DNA of 64,000 nt. It comes from Puniceicoccus vermicola. GTDB taxonomy: Bacteria > Verrucomicrobiota > Verrucomicrobiia > Opitutales > Puniceicoccaceae. Position 1 is the stretch's first letter. The number at the start of each line of letters is the position of its first letter. A program made the translations under genes and the position numbers. The notes beneath the pieces were generated by a model, which was given only the letters and a program-made list of their open reading frames with translations, had not been told where the DNA came from and ran no database searches. Positions 1-9,751 of this stretch are shown piece by piece. The DNA lies in the NCBI RefSeq assembly GCF_014230055.1, contig NZ_JACHVA010000082.1, positions 62,001 to 126,000 of the forward strand, read 5' to 3'.

Positions 1-181
1 TCGGATCAATGAATTCGAATTGCCGGATCTCAGTCTTGTTTTTTTCGGGGAAGAACTGCAGTCCATGCTTGCGGGCCAAAGCCGCTAGAGCTTCGCGTCG
101 CTTTTTCTGCTGGAGCCAACCATAGTAGGCCAGTCCTCCAAAAACGATGACGACGGGGATGATTATGAAAACGGGGTTCAT
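1..181 (-). CDS. Membrane-anchored hypothetical protein, 3' end cut by window edge
   Basis: Sixty codons are visible from an ATG at 181 running off the left edge. The product starts MNPVFIIIPVVIVFGGLAYY, one N-terminal membrane segment, followed by a basic stretch (QQKKRREALAALARKHGL) and then FFPEKNK. This layout, a signal-anchor followed by a soluble domain beginning with an 'ALARKHGL' helix, is common in small uncharacterised bacterial membrane proteins. I do not recognise a function. It reads away from the tandem repeat array that begins about 90 bp upstream. Confidence 0.6.
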   Translation of the reverse strand, partial: MNPVFIIIPVVIVFGGLAYYGWLQQKKRREALAALARKHGLQFFPEKNKTEIRQFEFIDP

Positions 182-267
182 CGGATTAGAGTGTGAGAAA
201 GGATCGAGGAGGGGACCAGTCTCAATTCGCGGAGGAAGACAGGCGAAGGCAAGAACAGGATGTTTGT

Positions 268-1182
268 AGTAGGGGCGCAGCTTCAGCTGCCCCCATCGCG
301 GATTTTTGGGCAGTCTCTCCGTGAGGACCTTTCGTAGCCGCAGGACCGCGCAGCTAAAGCTGAGCGGCTACTTGTTGTAGGACCGGCAGCTAGAGCGGCC
401 GGTCCCAGTGGGGATGTCGAATGTTGGGAATGCCGCCTAGGCGTCGGCGAAGAGTGCGGCTGGTGGGCCGCTTACGGGGAGGTCGCGGACGATTTTAGTA
501 GGGGCGCAGCTTCAGCTGCCCCCATCGCGGATTTTTGGACAGTCTCTCCGTGAGGACCCTTCGTGGCCGCAGGCCCGCGCAGCTAAAGCTGAGCGGCTAC
601 TTGTTGTAGGACCGGCTGCTAGATCGGCCGGTCCCAGTGGGGACAGTGGAATGTTGAGGATACCGCCTGGACGTCGGCGAAGAGTGCGCCTGGTGGGCCG
701 CTTGCGGGGAGTTCGCGCACGATTTTAGTAGGGGGCAGCTTCAGCTGCCCCCATTGCGGATTTTTGGACAGTCTCCCCGTGAGGACCCTTCGTGACCGCA
801 GGACCGCGCAGCTAAAGCTGAGCGGCTACTTGTTGTAGGACCGGCTGCTAGATCGGCCGGTCCCAGTGGGGACAGGGGAATGTTGAGGATACCGCCTGGA
901 CGTCGGCGAAGAGTGCGGCTGGTGGGCCCCTTAGGGGAGGTTGCGGACGATTTTAGTAGGGGCGCAGCTTCAGCTGCCCCCATCGCGGATTTCTCGGACA
1001 GTCTCCCCGTGAGGACCCTTCGTGGCCGCAGGACCGCGCAGCTAAAGCTGAGCGGCTACTTGTTGTAGGAGACCGGCAGCTAAAGCTGCCGGTCCCAGTG
1101 GGGATGGCGAATGTTGGGAATGCCGCCTAGGCGTCGGCGAAGAGTGCGGCTGGTGGGCCGCTTACGGGGAGATCGCGCACGA
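268..1182. repeat. Four-copy tandem array of a ~229-bp unit carrying the 3' end of the neighbouring gene
   Basis: Copies start at 268, 497, 727 and 955, spaced 229, 230 and 228 bp, each beginning AGTAGGGGCGCAGC or a close variant. Each unit contains short inverted repeats (GCAGCTTCAGCTGC near its start; AGCTAAAGCT; a GACCGGC...GCCGGTC hairpin). It ends with a copy of the last ~17 codons of the SMP-30/gluconolactonase-like gene, read on the minus strand. The fourth copy overlaps the real gene's 3' end (1127-1182). Copies 2 and 3 resemble each other most and have lost the TAG stop (now CAG). Copy 1 keeps a tail nearly identical to the true gene. This region of more than 900 bases holds no convincing independent gene. 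Confidence 0.9.
1071..1094. repeat. Perfect palindromic hairpin downstream of the gluconolactonase-like gene
   Basis: An 11-bp arm GACCGGCAGCT, a 2-nt AA spacer and the exact complementary arm, about 33 bp beyond the stop codon at 1127. Degenerate versions occur at the same place in the other three repeat units. No T-run follows on either strand, so it looks more like a REP-type hairpin protecting a transcript end than a classical intrinsic terminator. Confidence 0.6.
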
Positions 1183-1987
1183 CGAAAAGGTTTCCGCCGA
1201 ATTCTTCATCACGGTCTTTGGCTGTGCCGGTGCTGATGTAGAGGTCATTGCCCTTCGGTCCTCCGAAGGCGCACGAGGTGGTTTCGTGGGCGGGGACGTC
1301 GATGCGGCTGACCTCCTTGCCGGTTTCCGGATTGTAGCGGGCGACGTGTCCGCCGTGGCAGAAGGCGATCCAGAGGTTGTCTTCGCTGTCGATGGTCATT
1401 CCATCGGGCGAGGAATCCTTGTTCGAGGTCTCGACCACGACCCGAGGATTGGAAAGGGTCCCGGTTGCAGAATCGTAATCGAAGGCTTTGACTTCCTTGG
1501 AGGGGGTGTCGATGTAGAAGAGGGTCTTGCCGTCGGCTGACCAAGCGAGCCCGTTGGAGTTGGTCACTGGGCCGTAGGCTACGGAGTGCGACAAATCGCT
1601 GTCCAAGCAGTAGAGTTTGGCGGCTCCCGTTACTTTATCGGTGGCAATCGTTCCGCCATAGAGACGACCGTCAGGAGAGCACTTGCCGTCGTTGAAACGA
1701 TTGTTGGGAAGATCGGGCTCGGGATCGTATATCGGGGTGCTCGTGCCCGTTTCGCGATCCAGGAAATAAAAACCGTTGTCTCCGCCCCAGAGGAGGCGTC
1801 CGGACTTGCAGGGAACGACGAAGCCTACTTGTTGGTCGAGTTCCCAGCTCTGTTGCTTGCCGGTCTCGGGATCGAATTCAAGGATGCTCTGGGCGTGAAT
1901 GTCGACGTAGAGGAGGCGGCCGTTGTGCCAAGTCGGGCCCTCGCCCCATTTCGATTGGTAGTTGCCGATCGGTTCCGGTTTATTCAT
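1127..1987 (-). CDS. SMP-30/gluconolactonase/LRE-family lactonase
   Basis: A 286-residue six-bladed beta-propeller of the SMP-30/gluconolactonase family, normal length. Family members hydrolyse sugar lactones to aldonic acids with one divalent metal ion. Visible ligands are Glu16 (in GEGPTW), Asn145 (SNGLAWS) and Asp195 (SPDGMTID), and the RFNDGK motif (97-102) sits where the substrate-loop Asn-Asp is expected. No signal peptide is seen, so it is probably cytoplasmic. It lies downstream of a 2-hydroxyacid dehydrogenase and an aldehyde dehydrogenase on the same strand, compatible with oxidative sugar catabolism, though the substrate is not readable. Its last codons are copied in the tandem array immediately downstream. 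Confidence 0.85.
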   Translation of the reverse strand: MNKPEPIGNYQSKWGEGPTWHNGRLLYVDIHAQSILEFDPETGKQQSWELDQQVGFVVPCKSGRLLWGGDNGFYFLDRETGTSTPIYDPEPDLPNNRFNDGKCSPDGRLYGGTIATDKVTGAAKLYCLDSDLSHSVAYGPVTNSNGLAWSADGKTLFYIDTPSKEVKAFDYDSATGTLSNPRVVVETSNKDSSPDGMTIDSEDNLWIAFCHGGHVARYNPETGKEVSRIDVPAHETTSCAFGGPKGNDLYISTGTAKDRDEEFGGNLFVVRDLPVSGPPAALFADA

Positions 1988-2029
1988 GGAGAAAGGCTTT
2001 CACAGAACCGGAAGCCAAGGCAAGGCGGT

Positions 2030-2137
2030 TTGTCGGTCTGTCAGTGGCCGGTGGTCGGTTTGTCGGTGGTCGGTCTGTCGGTGGTCAGTGGTCAGTGGTC
2101 AGTGGTCAGCGGTCGGTAGTCGGTGGTCGGTGGTCGG
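2030..2137. repeat. Degenerate heptamer tandem repeat tract
   Basis: A run of tandem 7-mers built on GGTCAGT and GGTCGGT variants (for example three consecutive GTCAGTG units around 2090-2110) fills most of the gap between the gluconolactonase-like gene (start 1987) and the end of the dehydrogenase gene (2170). It has no complementary arms and no coding sense. Strand-slippage expansion is the likely origin. Confidence 0.8.
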
Positions 2138-2169
2138 AGAGGCGGTTGCGCGACGGTCGGGACCTTCGA

Positions 2170-3165
2170 CTAGGCGATGAGGGCCATCTTCTCCTTGGTA
2201 ACGGGAGTGATGGGTTCTTTTCCTGCGAGGAAGCGCTCGCACTCCTTAACGACTTCGGCGCCCATGCGGAAGCATTCACGTCCTTTGGAACCGGCGATGT
2301 GGGGAGTGAGGATGGCGTTGGGCAAATCGCGAAGAGGTGAGCTATGACGATTGGCCTCATCCTGAATGACGTCGAGGATGGCGGTAATGTCGGGTCGTTC
2401 GCGGAGGACCTCGATCATCGCAGGTTCGTCGACGACCATCCCGCGGGAGGTGTTGATGAAGGTGGTGCCGTGGCTCATGCTACGGAGGTGGTCTCCGGTG
2501 ATCATTCCCTCCGTCGACGGAAGCCAGGGGGTGTGGAGCGAAACCACATCGCAAGTTTCGAAAATCGCCTCCAGGGTTTCCGATTTCTCAGCTCCGCAGG
2601 CGTAAAAGAGGTCGTTAGTGGCGAAGGGGTCGTAAGCGACGACGTCGAGATCGAGATGTTTCAATTTCTGACAAACGAGTTGACCGATGGCACCGAGCGA
2701 AATGATACCGACGCGGCTACCGTGATACATGCCCTGAATGGTTTGGTGGGAGTCTCCATCTTCTCCCTTCTGGAGAGCCGTCATGTAGTGCCAAAAGCGC
2801 TTGAGCGAAAGAGTGATCGTGGCTTCGGTGAACTCTGCGACGGGAATCGCGTTCATCTGATAGGCACTGGTGAGGAGGATGTCGCGTTCCCAAAATGAAT
2901 CGGTGATGAATCCGCGGGTGCTACCAGCCGCGTAGAAGAGGGCTTTCAGCGAGGGAAGAGCGTTCAGAAGCTCTTCGTCAAAGAGTGGGCAGCCCCAGCT
3001 TGAAAAGACAATATCGACATCCTGGTAGGCGGACGGATTGCTGAGAATCGACTCCCGAGTATGGAGATTCCCGTCATTGTCGGTCATCTCTTTGATCTGT
3101 TGAATGGAGCTCGTGTTGTAGACGAACTTGAGGGAATCCTCCGGAAGTAGGAAAATCGATTTCAC
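2170..3165 (-). CDS. D-isomer-specific 2-hydroxyacid dehydrogenase family protein
   Basis: 331 residues, starting at a GTG at 3165. The family reduces 2-keto acids or oxidises D-2-hydroxy acids with NAD(P)H. The nucleotide-binding segment reads VGIISLGAIGQ, so the first glycine of the usual GxGxxG is serine here; the rest of the fold is intact. The catalytic Arg lies in FINTSRG, the Glu in the IQDEAN segment and the His in LTPHIAGS. The SLHTPWLPSTEGMI segment is typical of the family. No signal peptide. It probably belongs with the neighbouring lactonase and aldehyde dehydrogenase in sugar-acid metabolism; the true substrate is unknown. Confidence 0.85.
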   Translation of the reverse strand: MKSIFLLPEDSLKFVYNTSSIQQIKEMTDNDGNLHTRESILSNPSAYQDVDIVFSSWGCPLFDEELLNALPSLKALFYAAGSTRGFITDSFWERDILLTSAYQMNAIPVAEFTEATITLSLKRFWHYMTALQKGEDGDSHQTIQGMYHGSRVGIISLGAIGQLVCQKLKHLDLDVVAYDPFATNDLFYACGAEKSETLEAIFETCDVVSLHTPWLPSTEGMITGDHLRSMSHGTTFINTSRGMVVDEPAMIEVLRERPDITAILDVIQDEANRHSSPLRDLPNAILTPHIAGSKGRECFRMGAEVVKECERFLAGKEPITPVTKEKMALIA

Positions 3166-5713: not shown

Positions 5714-7877
5714 GAGGCTCTTTGGAGATCGAACCTGCCAAGGTTAGGATCTGTTCGGCGACGTCGGCGATGTTGTAGAAAAGAGTAAACTGTAGCCGAG
5801 TCAGCCCTGCATTTGTCTGTTGGGTCTTTTCGGTGATTGAGGTGAGGATCGGGCGAAGATCTTCTTCCGGTGATGGGCAGGGTTGTTGCAAGCAATGCTG
5901 GCAGGTCTCCAGGGCCGAGAGGATTGAGTTGGAGAAATCGAGAATCTCCTCAGGAGGCCGCCTCTCAGGGCGGCGATGAGCGCCGAAGGCCGATAAATAG
6001 GAGAGTAGGGCGTGATTGAGGTAGGTCAGGTCAAAGGCGAGCTCACGTGACTTTTGGCGCTTGCTGGGTTCGAGATGCATGTCCTGCCAAGCGAGAACGA
6101 GAGCATTGTCGGCGCGGTGGGCTTCGCGCCGGGCAGAGCGGTAGGGGAGGTCGTCTCCGGTGACTGTCCCGGAATACTCGTCGAGGATTGCCCGAAAGTA
6201 GGCCGCATTCTTCGCCAAGGCTTCAGACAGGAGGCTGGGCAGTCGTTTGTACTGCCAGTCAGGCCAGAGTAATCGAACGCTGAGGTAAGCCAACCCCGAA
6301 CCGATCAGCGTGTCGATCAAACGTGGGGCCATAAGGGCTACGCCTTGATGGGAGACCAGATTGAAGGCACAGAGGACGAATGTGGTGATGAAGATGACTG
6401 AGACGGAGTAGTTCTTCTTCAGCCAGAAGAAGAAGGCAAACGCCGAGACGAGCATGAAGAGCAATTGCCCCGGAATCGTGGGAAGCAATTGGACAATGAG
6501 AATTCCACCAACGACTCCGCTGAGGGTTCCGAGAATGCGCTGAAAGAGTCGGCGTCTCGTGCTGCTATAACTCGGTTGGCAGACGAAGAGACTCGTCAGA
6601 ATGATCCATTCGCCCTTGGGCATGGGAAAGATCTGGAAGATCGTAAAACCAGTGAGAAAGCAAAGACTGAGGCGGATTGCGTGACGGAGACGCGGGCTCT
6701 CCCAGTAAAGCTGGTCCTTGATTCGCTGGACCGTGGTTCGTCGGTCACGAGCGAGTTGGGGCGATAGGTCGCGGAAGAGATTGTCGCTGAGATTCCGGAG
6801 CGACTGATTGGAACGGGCGAGGTTGTTGACGAGAAGGACAAGGGGCGAGGTCTGATCGAATTGGTTGTCCTGTAGTTGTTTTTCGAGAACGCCGATGATC
6901 CAGTCGAGGGAGACGGGGTGGCGATAAGGGACTCCGGTGAGAAGGCTTTCAGAGAGCTTTCGGGAGGCTTGCGACAATTGGCTAAGGGTCTGGCTGATGC
7001 CTTCCAGTAACTCCCGGTTTTCGGGTTTTTGGCTCAAAAGGTCGTAACGTTCGTGACTGGAAGCGGCGCGTTCGTGCAGGCTTTGAAGCAGCATGAAAGA
7101 CTGCAGATAGGGCCGGAGTTCTGAGGGGTCCTTCAGGGAGTCGCTGTAGCTGTTGAGGACGTCTTTGCATTGGTCGAGTGCGGTGACGAGGCGAACGTTG
7201 CGAAGAGCGAGCTGGTTGCGCACCTGGCCCTGACTCTTTTCCTCGCTGGGGAAAAGACTCGCTTTGATTTCCAGATAGTCGGCGAGGGCCGCGTAGCCAC
7301 GGGCGAGTTGTTCTTCCAGAAGACGCCATGGATGGAGGAGGAGCAGGCCCAGTGAGATGAGCCCGTAAAACAGGGCCCCAGCGGGGAGGAGGAGCGGCTG
7401 CCAGTACCAGGCTGGGCTGATCGAGGCTCCAATCATGGCATAGATTCCGACCAGAACAGCACCAAAGGTAACTCCGCGATAGCGTTCGCTGATTCCCCCG
7501 ATCAGGAGAAACCCGATTGTAGATAGTGCGAGCCCTAGTCCGAGGAGGATCGGATAGGGGCGAAGGAGTTCTACCGAAAGGCTGGAGATTCCAAAGCTGA
7601 CCACCTTCAGTGCCATTGACTTGACGCGGCCGGCGGGATGATCGTCAGTCTCGGAGAGGGCTCCGGCTAAGGCACCGAGGGAGAGCGATACCGCAAAGAA
7701 AGGAAAGCCAAGCAATACGAGAGGGATGGCAAGAAGAGCAATCGCGACGGTAGCCTTGATCGCCATGAGCCGATCCGGGTTTCGCCAGAAAGATCGGCGG
7801 ATGGGCTCATACCATGAGCATCCTTCGAGCAAGCCTCGCACTCGGGATGTGCCTTCGTGTCCCTTCCTCTCTATCAT
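5679..7877 (-). CDS. FUSC/YccS-type inner-membrane efflux protein
   Basis: 732 residues with the two-block architecture of the YccS/YhfK/AaeB (FUSC) family: a hydrophobic block near 38-190, a long soluble helical region (200-390), a second membrane block (about 400-540) and a C-terminal cytoplasmic helical part. Second-block segments such as [25 protein letters not shown] and [15 protein letters not shown] are clear. Family members export aromatic acids or other amphiphiles, but this one's substrate is not known. The gene reads towards and slightly overlaps the transglutaminase-like gene. Confidence 0.82.
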
Positions 7878-8237
7878 TGGTTTTAAAGATTATCACCCGG
7901 GTTCTTCATTGAGAAGACTGTTTCTTGATCCGTCCCGCGGTAGGGGATGTCCGTTGCGGTTAAATGTCCGGCACTGGGCAAACCCAAAATGGACGCTGAT
8001 CGGCTCCATCAGGGAAATTCAGGAATGGATAGCGTGGGATAAATATCTTTTTTGGGGGAGGGCGAAGCTAAAGTAGTGAGAGCTTCCAGCTCTCTCCTGC
8101 CGATCAGAGGCGAAACGGCGGGGAGCCATGTTGATTACACCCTCCGAGTTTCCACGTTTTCAATATAACCGTCCCAGTGCCCTCAATCCCTCCACTCAGG
8201 CAAGTTAGCCAAGGAATCGCCAACTCACTTGCCCGAT
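7878..8237. other. Intergenic stretch without a recognisable gene
   Basis: 360 bp between the start of the FUSC gene and the stop of the retropepsin-like gene, both on the minus strand. It should hold the FUSC promoter and the end of the rimK operon. I see only a weak hairpin at 8078-8094 (GAGAGCT-TCC-AGCTCTC arms) with no following T-run. The short open frames here have no coding character. Confidence 0.5.
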
Positions 8238-8684: not shown

Positions 8685-9751
8685 TGTTCTTCCTCCTCAC
8701 TCACATCGATGTTGGTCGCCAGTTGGGTTCGCAGATCGGATTCGAGTGAGTTCTTTTCGAGTCCGCCGATACTTTGAGTTAATCGGAGGTGCTGCTGTTT
8801 ACTCTTGGGGAGGGCGATGTGAAATATTGGATCGCCGGCGGCGACGGCCGGCATTGTCGTCATCCCCATGACGATTCCATCGTAGGGGCTTCGAATGGTT
8901 TCATTGGTGCGGCCGAGGAGGGTGGTGTTGGTGGCAAGCACTTGACCCGAGGCGACTGATTGTCCAGGGGCGACGTGGTAGCGTAAGAGGCCAGCCTTTT
9001 CGGCCCGAACCCATTTGGTTTCTTCGACAATGATCTGGTGTGGAGGGAGCTGTTGGAATCCTTCGACGATTCCCAGTTCAATGAGGACGTTGGTAATGCC
9101 TCGTCGGGTGAGATCCAATACGGTGGGCTCCACTTTCCAAACTTCGCCTGCTTCGATGACAATTGTGGGGCATCCGGCATCGACCGCTTCTCTACGAAGT
9201 GAACCTTCGGGGCCTGATCCGTTGACAATCACCTCGCAACCGAAGGCACGCGCGAGGCGTTGACAGTCCGTATTCTCGCAGTCGGCCCGTACGTTGGGAA
9301 AATTGGTTCGCCGCAGGGCGGCTGTGTGAAGGTCGACGATGTAGTCGCAGCGTTTGACGACATCTTCAAACACCTTGCGGGCGAGCCTCGCAGTGAGACT
9401 GCCTTTGGCGGTTCCCGGGAAAGAGCGATTGAGATCGCGGCGGTCCGGCATGTAGCGAGTGTGTCGCTCGAATCCGAGAATGTTGATCACCGGGATGAGG
9501 ATAAGAGTCCCGCGGGCCAAAGAGAAGGGAGGTTCTTGGATGAGGCTGCGGATCGCTCCTGTGCCATTCACTTCATCGCCATGAACGGCGCTGGTGATTC
9601 CCAGGACCGGTCCAGGCTCTTTGGCTCTCCAAACAACGATAGGAAGATTCACCCGGGCACCACTGAGGCTCTTGCCCACTTCGAGGGAGAATCGCTTCAG
9701 CTGTCCTGCCTCGACTCTCACCTTTCCCCATTCTGCGGGCGAGGGTTTCAT
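8681..9751 (-). CDS. Succinylglutamate desuccinylase/aspartoacylase family deacylase
   Basis: 356 residues, a zinc carboxypeptidase-like (M14 clan) fold. Likely zinc ligands are His57 and Glu60 in AVHGDE and His142 in VDLHTA; the RDLNRSFPG loop matches the family's arginine/asparagine substrate site. The C-terminal half (IVEETKWVRAEKAG...VASGQVLA) is a biotinyl-like beta-barrel often present in this branch. Family reactions cleave N-acyl or glutamyl-type amides. It is coupled by 4-bp ATGA overlaps to rimK upstream and the RimB-like gene downstream, so hydrolysis of a RimK-made glutamyl bond or a related N-acyl glutamate is a reasonable guess. Confidence 0.85.
   Translation of the reverse strand: MKPSPAEWGKVRVEAGQLKRFSLEVGKSLSGARVNLPIVVWRAKEPGPVLGITSAVHGDEVNGTGAIRSLIQEPPFSLARGTLILIPVINILGFERHTRYMPDRRDLNRSFPGTAKGSLTARLARKVFEDVVKRCDYIVDLHTAALRRTNFPNVRADCENTDCQRLARAFGCEVIVNGSGPEGSLRREAVDAGCPTIVIEAGEVWKVEPTVLDLTRRGITNVLIELGIVEGFQQLPPHQIIVEETKWVRAEKAGLLRYHVAPGQSVASGQVLATNTTLLGRTNETIRSPYDGIVMGMTTMPAVAAGDPIFHIALPKSKQQHLRLTQSIGGLEKNSLESDLRTQLATNIDVSEEEEQ

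Follow-up and report, generated by a model that had tools for sequence, protein, structure and literature searches.

The array and its surroundings

The window analysed in this work is a stretch of 64,000 nucleotides from Puniceicoccus vermicola. At its left end lie two genes on the minus strand: an SMP-30/gluconolactonase-like gene coding for 286 aa (1127-1987; Pfam PF08450, E = 2.9e-79), and the start of the next downstream gene (2-181), recognised as an ORF. The gap between them measures 945 nt (182-1126) and is nearly all occupied by a tandem array, the sole long-period one that TRF detects at this end of the window. TRF places it at 267-1182 and describes it as 4.0 copies with a period of 229, 92% matches and a score of 1500, while 20 Markov-shuffled windows gave 6 rows in total with a score of at least 50. 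The units lie at about 267-495, 496-724, 725-953 and 954-1182, with start-to-start distances of 229, 229 and 229-230 in the repeat finder. The total length is exactly 4 x 229, and a terminal partial copy is absent. No known RNA family was found in window 1-2500 at E values up to 1.

Alignment of the four units showed that the copies diverge by 7-14%, which is unlike a false duplication. The genome is a draft of 143 contigs and the copy number of such arrays is easily misassembled, but given this divergence we regard an assembly artefact, in the array itself or in its copy number, as very improbable. Beyond the lactonase-like gene, the 182-bp gap that separates it from a 2-hydroxyacid dehydrogenase gene contains an imperfect 7-bp tandem repeat (GTCGGTG, about 14 copies, window 2040-2137).

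REP palindromes within the units

Each unit bears three REP palindromes, all consisting of a GTAG and an imperfect hairpin, in the order GTAG plus GGGCGCAGCTTCAGCTGCCCCC, inverted GTAG plus CCGCTCAGCTTTAGCTGCGCGG, and a third GTAG plus GACCGGCAGCTAAAGCTGCCGGTC or a degraded version of it. In unit 1, REP 1 occupies 269-294 on the plus strand (GTAG and the hairpin GGGCGCAGCTTCAGCTGCCCCC; also at 498, 728 and 956), and its inverted partner REP 2 lies at 346-371 on the minus strand (GTAGCCGCTCAGCTTTAGCTGCGCGG; pattern matches also at 575-600, 804-829 and 1034-1059). This head-to-head pair is present in four of four units. REP 3, on the plus strand, is a degraded palindrome in unit 1 (377-404, GTAG and GACCGGCAGCTAGAGCGGCCGGTC; copies at about 606, 835 and 1065) and has a perfect 10-bp stem in unit 4 (1065-1094, GACCGGCAGCTAAAGCTGCCGGTC). 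Folding as single-stranded DNA gave -9.1 kcal/mol for the hairpin of REP 1 (z -3.6), -7.7 kcal/mol for that of REP 2 (z -2.1) and -14 kcal/mol for REP 3 of unit 4 (z -6.9).

GTAG-REPs are defined by a GTAG followed by an imperfect palindrome (PMC3733652), and two REPs in head-to-head order form a REPIN or BIME (PMC3733652, PMC3116915). The array shows the features of this class: the tagged imperfect palindromes, the head-to-head pair, and a high copy number at mostly extragenic positions. Across the 5.2-Mb genome, the initial ~131 nt of the unit occur about 96 times, and a search for the REP 2 arm gave 111 matches with at most two mismatches, against 0 for a reversed control pattern. A simple VNTR, with a unit unrelated to any dispersed family, was rejected because of these ~96 occurrences of the first part of the unit. 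An IS200/IS605 element, with its own transposase between subterminal hairpins, was likewise rejected, the 229-bp units being too short and devoid of a transposase ORF. A lone REP of another family (GTAGTGAGAGCTTCCAGCTCTC) lies at window 8073.

The REP 2 arm gave 0 matches in the five relatives searched (two same-genus, one same-family and two same-order genomes), and a DNA search with the three-REP stretch found nothing in 34 relatives. In one of the same-genus genomes (G002) the same two genes lie in the same order, separated by 39 nt from stop to next start, with a lactonase 68% identical to the protein of the window and neither a REP nor an array in this 39-nt gap.

The initial annotation of this DNA had reported four units of 228-230 bp at 268-1182, in agreement with the positions, period and spacings given above, and had called them a hairpin-rich intergenic repeat expanded with the gene end. 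That description stands, the hairpins being the three folding REP palindromes, and one check that it proposed, a search for the hairpin units elsewhere in the genome, yielded the counts of the REP 2 arm and of the unit start. It overlooked the REPIN/BIME identity of the repeat, its genome-wide family and the likely RAYT, as well as tens of sister arrays in the genome and the published examples of tandem REP clusters with flanking DNA.

The duplicated gene tail

The coding part of each unit is the last 56 bp of the lactonase-like gene (17-18 codons plus stop), read on the minus strand. Unit 4 contains the genuine 3' end of the gene (1127-1182). Copy 1 of the tail (437-492) has kept the stop codon, copy 2 (667-722) has lost it, and copy 3 (896-950) has lost it and also carries a 1-nt deletion. 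Written on the plus strand, the aligned stop position reads CTA for copies 1 and 4 but CTG for copies 2 and 3. Over alignment columns 161-233, which hold the tail, copy 1 is 93% identical to copy 4, copy 2 86% and copy 3 82%.

Ten sites unite copies 1 and 4 against copies 2 and 3, and all of them fall in columns 125-179 of 233, a tract of ~55 bp (permutation p = 5.5e-5). Since these sites are confined to one sharp tract, the pattern points to gene conversion or unequal exchange among the copies rather than to a plain series of duplications. Copies 1 and 4 probably hold the older state in this tract, because copy 4 has a working stop. The initial annotation had noticed that every unit ends with the last ~17 codons of the gene, that copies 2 and 3 lack the stop while copy 1 stays close to the gene tail, and that the repeat had expanded together with coding sequence; all of this is borne out by the alignment. 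Its suggestion of a copy history that was not simple, with two rounds of expansion or gene conversion, agrees with the clustered tract.

Such mosaic tails, with a clustered tract common to copies 1 and 4, would also be expected if they were silent cassettes that diversify the C-terminus of the gene by gene conversion. We consider this extremely improbable: copies 2 and 3 are stop-less, copy 3 is frameshifted, and tens of intergenic sites have like arrays that include no coding sequence. The tails of copies 1-3 lie downstream of the gene and are probably untranslated; they have no visible coding role and look like decaying by-products.

Sister arrays in the genome

We surveyed 1.48 of the 5.2 Mb of the genome for tandem arrays with a period of at least 60. 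The genome is very dense in REP clusters: 67 tandem arrays, almost all intergenic, were found in the 1.48 Mb sampled, a density that is likely an overestimate because the sample was partly picked for family matches. Four long contigs, nearly complete, held 25 arrays in 893 kb. For comparison, the sampled parts of two same-genus genomes contained 0 arrays in 400 kb (G001) and 2 in 354 kb (G002), and 80 loci from other genomes contained 3 arrays in 647 kb. One of the five palindrome families looked for is present in 52 of the 67 arrays. Arrays are enriched in the gaps of convergent gene pairs, with 23/61 against 179/1176 gene pairs (p = 4e-5, odds ratio 3.4), and placement of REPs between convergent genes has already been reported (PMC3733652).

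At least 17 bp of the 3' end of a neighbouring gene is included in 4/67 arrays, as counted with a hexamer-scored gene caller, plain ORF-based counts being inflated by spurious frames. One of the four is the array of the window, with its 56 bp. The second, at C82:58842-59536 (= L021:3843-4537), lies outside the window, with about 3 kb between it and the array described here, and has a different palindrome (GTAGCGCGGGTTGG family); its three 233-bp units carry 163 bp from the end of a gene for a 3'-5' exonuclease (PF01612, E = 1.2e-23). The third, C36:26704-27600, is built of 461-bp units, each holding three palindrome families and the final 173 bp of a gene of 2031 bp, and a further partial copy seemingly lies in its right flank. 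The fourth, C76:16292-16953, holds 17 bp of a gene 3' end, the stop being supplied by the TAG of a GTAG. Capture of a gene tail is therefore a recurrent but minority outcome, with three clear cases of co-amplified coding sequence.

Proposed identity: a REPIN cluster duplicated with a gene end

We propose that the array is a REPIN/BIME cluster that was duplicated together with the end of the lactonase-like gene, a reading to which we give a probability of about 0.9. It is supported by the REP structure of the units, the abundance of the family, REPINs of the same family that flank a RAYT gene, the array-free relative and the mosaic copies. The RAYT lies at C127:8020-8703 and has a tandem array of REPINs from the window's family on each side, at 7816-8028 and at 8751-8959. 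It has the H-x-H motif MPNHLHL, and matches the NCBIfam model REP_Tyr_transpos with E = 5.9e-19 and 68 bits, which is below the curated cut-off of 80, and the solved E. coli TnpA_REP 4er8 with E = 5.4e-5 at the sequence level. This Y1 HUH transposase, flanked by REPs of the same family, is likely the cognate enzyme of the window's REPs, as judged from sequence and gene neighbourhood.

Clusters of tandem REPs together with flanking DNA have been described before, and the array of the window belongs among them. In Pseudomonas fluorescens SBW25, REPINs are repeated in tandem with the sequence flanking them on either side, and each RAYT adjoins a REPIN cluster (PMC3116915). The window's array shares with these clusters the head-to-head REP pair repeated with its flank and the presence of RAYT genes in the same genome, but its REP sequence differs and its flank holds a 3' coding end. 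GTAG repeats are abundant in the verrucomicrobium Opitutus terrae, and GTAG-REP clusters occur in many other bacteria (PMC3733652). The GTAG-tagged palindromes and the position of REPs near gene 3' ends are common to those clusters and to the window's array, whereas the window's family was found in no other genome searched. With the E. coli system, the array has in common the alternating tandem REPs and the enzyme family, as indicated by the match to 4er8; it differs in the REP sequence and in its coding tail, which is not reported in the E. coli literature examined. A limited literature search found no earlier report of coding tails in REP arrays. An anonymous repeat can now be named as a REPIN cluster, the single array being otherwise ordinary.

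Regarding its origin, a REPIN and a third REP would have been inserted just behind the lactonase-like gene, brought to the site, we infer, by the RAYT of the family. A 229-bp piece, with one end near the outer GTAG of REP 1 and the other 56 bp into the gene, would then have been duplicated in tandem. This first duplication was probably, though far from certainly, illegitimate, and it may have occurred during replication or repair at a fork stalled by the palindromes. It could also have arisen through unequal homologous recombination between a pair of directly repeated REPINs, and some other arrays do start and end with a REPIN, as at C45:42508-43787 (7.6 copies). In the window's array, four exact units with no terminal partial copy leave no second direct REPIN at the gene-side boundary, and we consider recombination between REPINs an improbable source of the first duplication. 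Because the array is exactly 4 x 229, no outer-end direct repeat able to seed the duplication is left.

A more active part of the RAYT can also be envisaged, in which the enzyme nicks a REP in single-stranded DNA, and the 3' end thus freed serves as the primer for several rounds of copying of the REP and the adjoining gene end, giving rise to tandem units. A likely cognate RAYT is present at C127, the 3'-OH that TnpA_REP leaves behind has been noted as a possible primer of replication (PMC8266576), and the left unit boundary lies at most 3 nt from a GTAG. However, the other boundary lies inside the gene, where there is no REP, a CT dinucleotide is not visible at the inferred break, and the gene-tail cases in which boundaries can be compared number only four; in two arrays read by eye, no clear CT site was seen at the unit boundaries. 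Since the copies have diverged as described, the original breakpoints can be located only approximately, which limits what the array can reveal about microhomology or a RAYT cut site. We consider it unlikely that the RAYT made the array in this way. The broader proposal, that nicking by a RAYT followed by local re-copying makes the REP arrays of this genome grow, with occasional capture and multiplication of gene ends, also appears improbable to us; if true, the arrays would be a record of an unproven step in REP amplification.

Under the preferred reading, a cluster duplicated with the gene end, amplification to four copies would have followed the first duplication, with exchange of tracts among the copies, and later gain or loss of copies may have taken place by unequal recombination. 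In E. coli, tandem REPIN copies can be lost in the laboratory, and five tandem copies of one cluster were deleted once in a mutation-accumulation line (PMC8049555). The intact gene would retain the nearest unit, and the remaining tails would be left downstream to decay. The arrays of this genome offer a natural test set for the expansion of REP arrays, a point that the examined literature leaves open.

Other RAYT and Y1 transposase genes

The RAYT on C127 was detected only by a protein search with another RAYT, from C16, as query, and nine RAYTs were found in this way. The stretch C127:7816-8959, likely a REPtron, was missed by the PF01797 search. The genome contains 50 Y1_Tnp matches, against 15 and 13 in the same-genus genomes. 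A link between these matches and the window's REP family was rejected, the family adjoining 0 of the 42 loci inspected. The matches are mostly open frames of ~320 aa that align only to about model positions 5-67, with no clear REPs beside them at the inspected loci, and they are probably a separate, expanded transposase group.

Other RAYTs, on C16, C92 and C9, adjoin REPs of other families. At C16:1-1600, a RAYT has regular GTAGYGAGAGC REP arrays on both sides, six before and nine after, and this locus is likely the REPtron of a second family. At C9:20121-20693, a RAYT frame with one in-frame TGA is flanked by GTAGAACAGGC/GTACCACAGGC palindromes.
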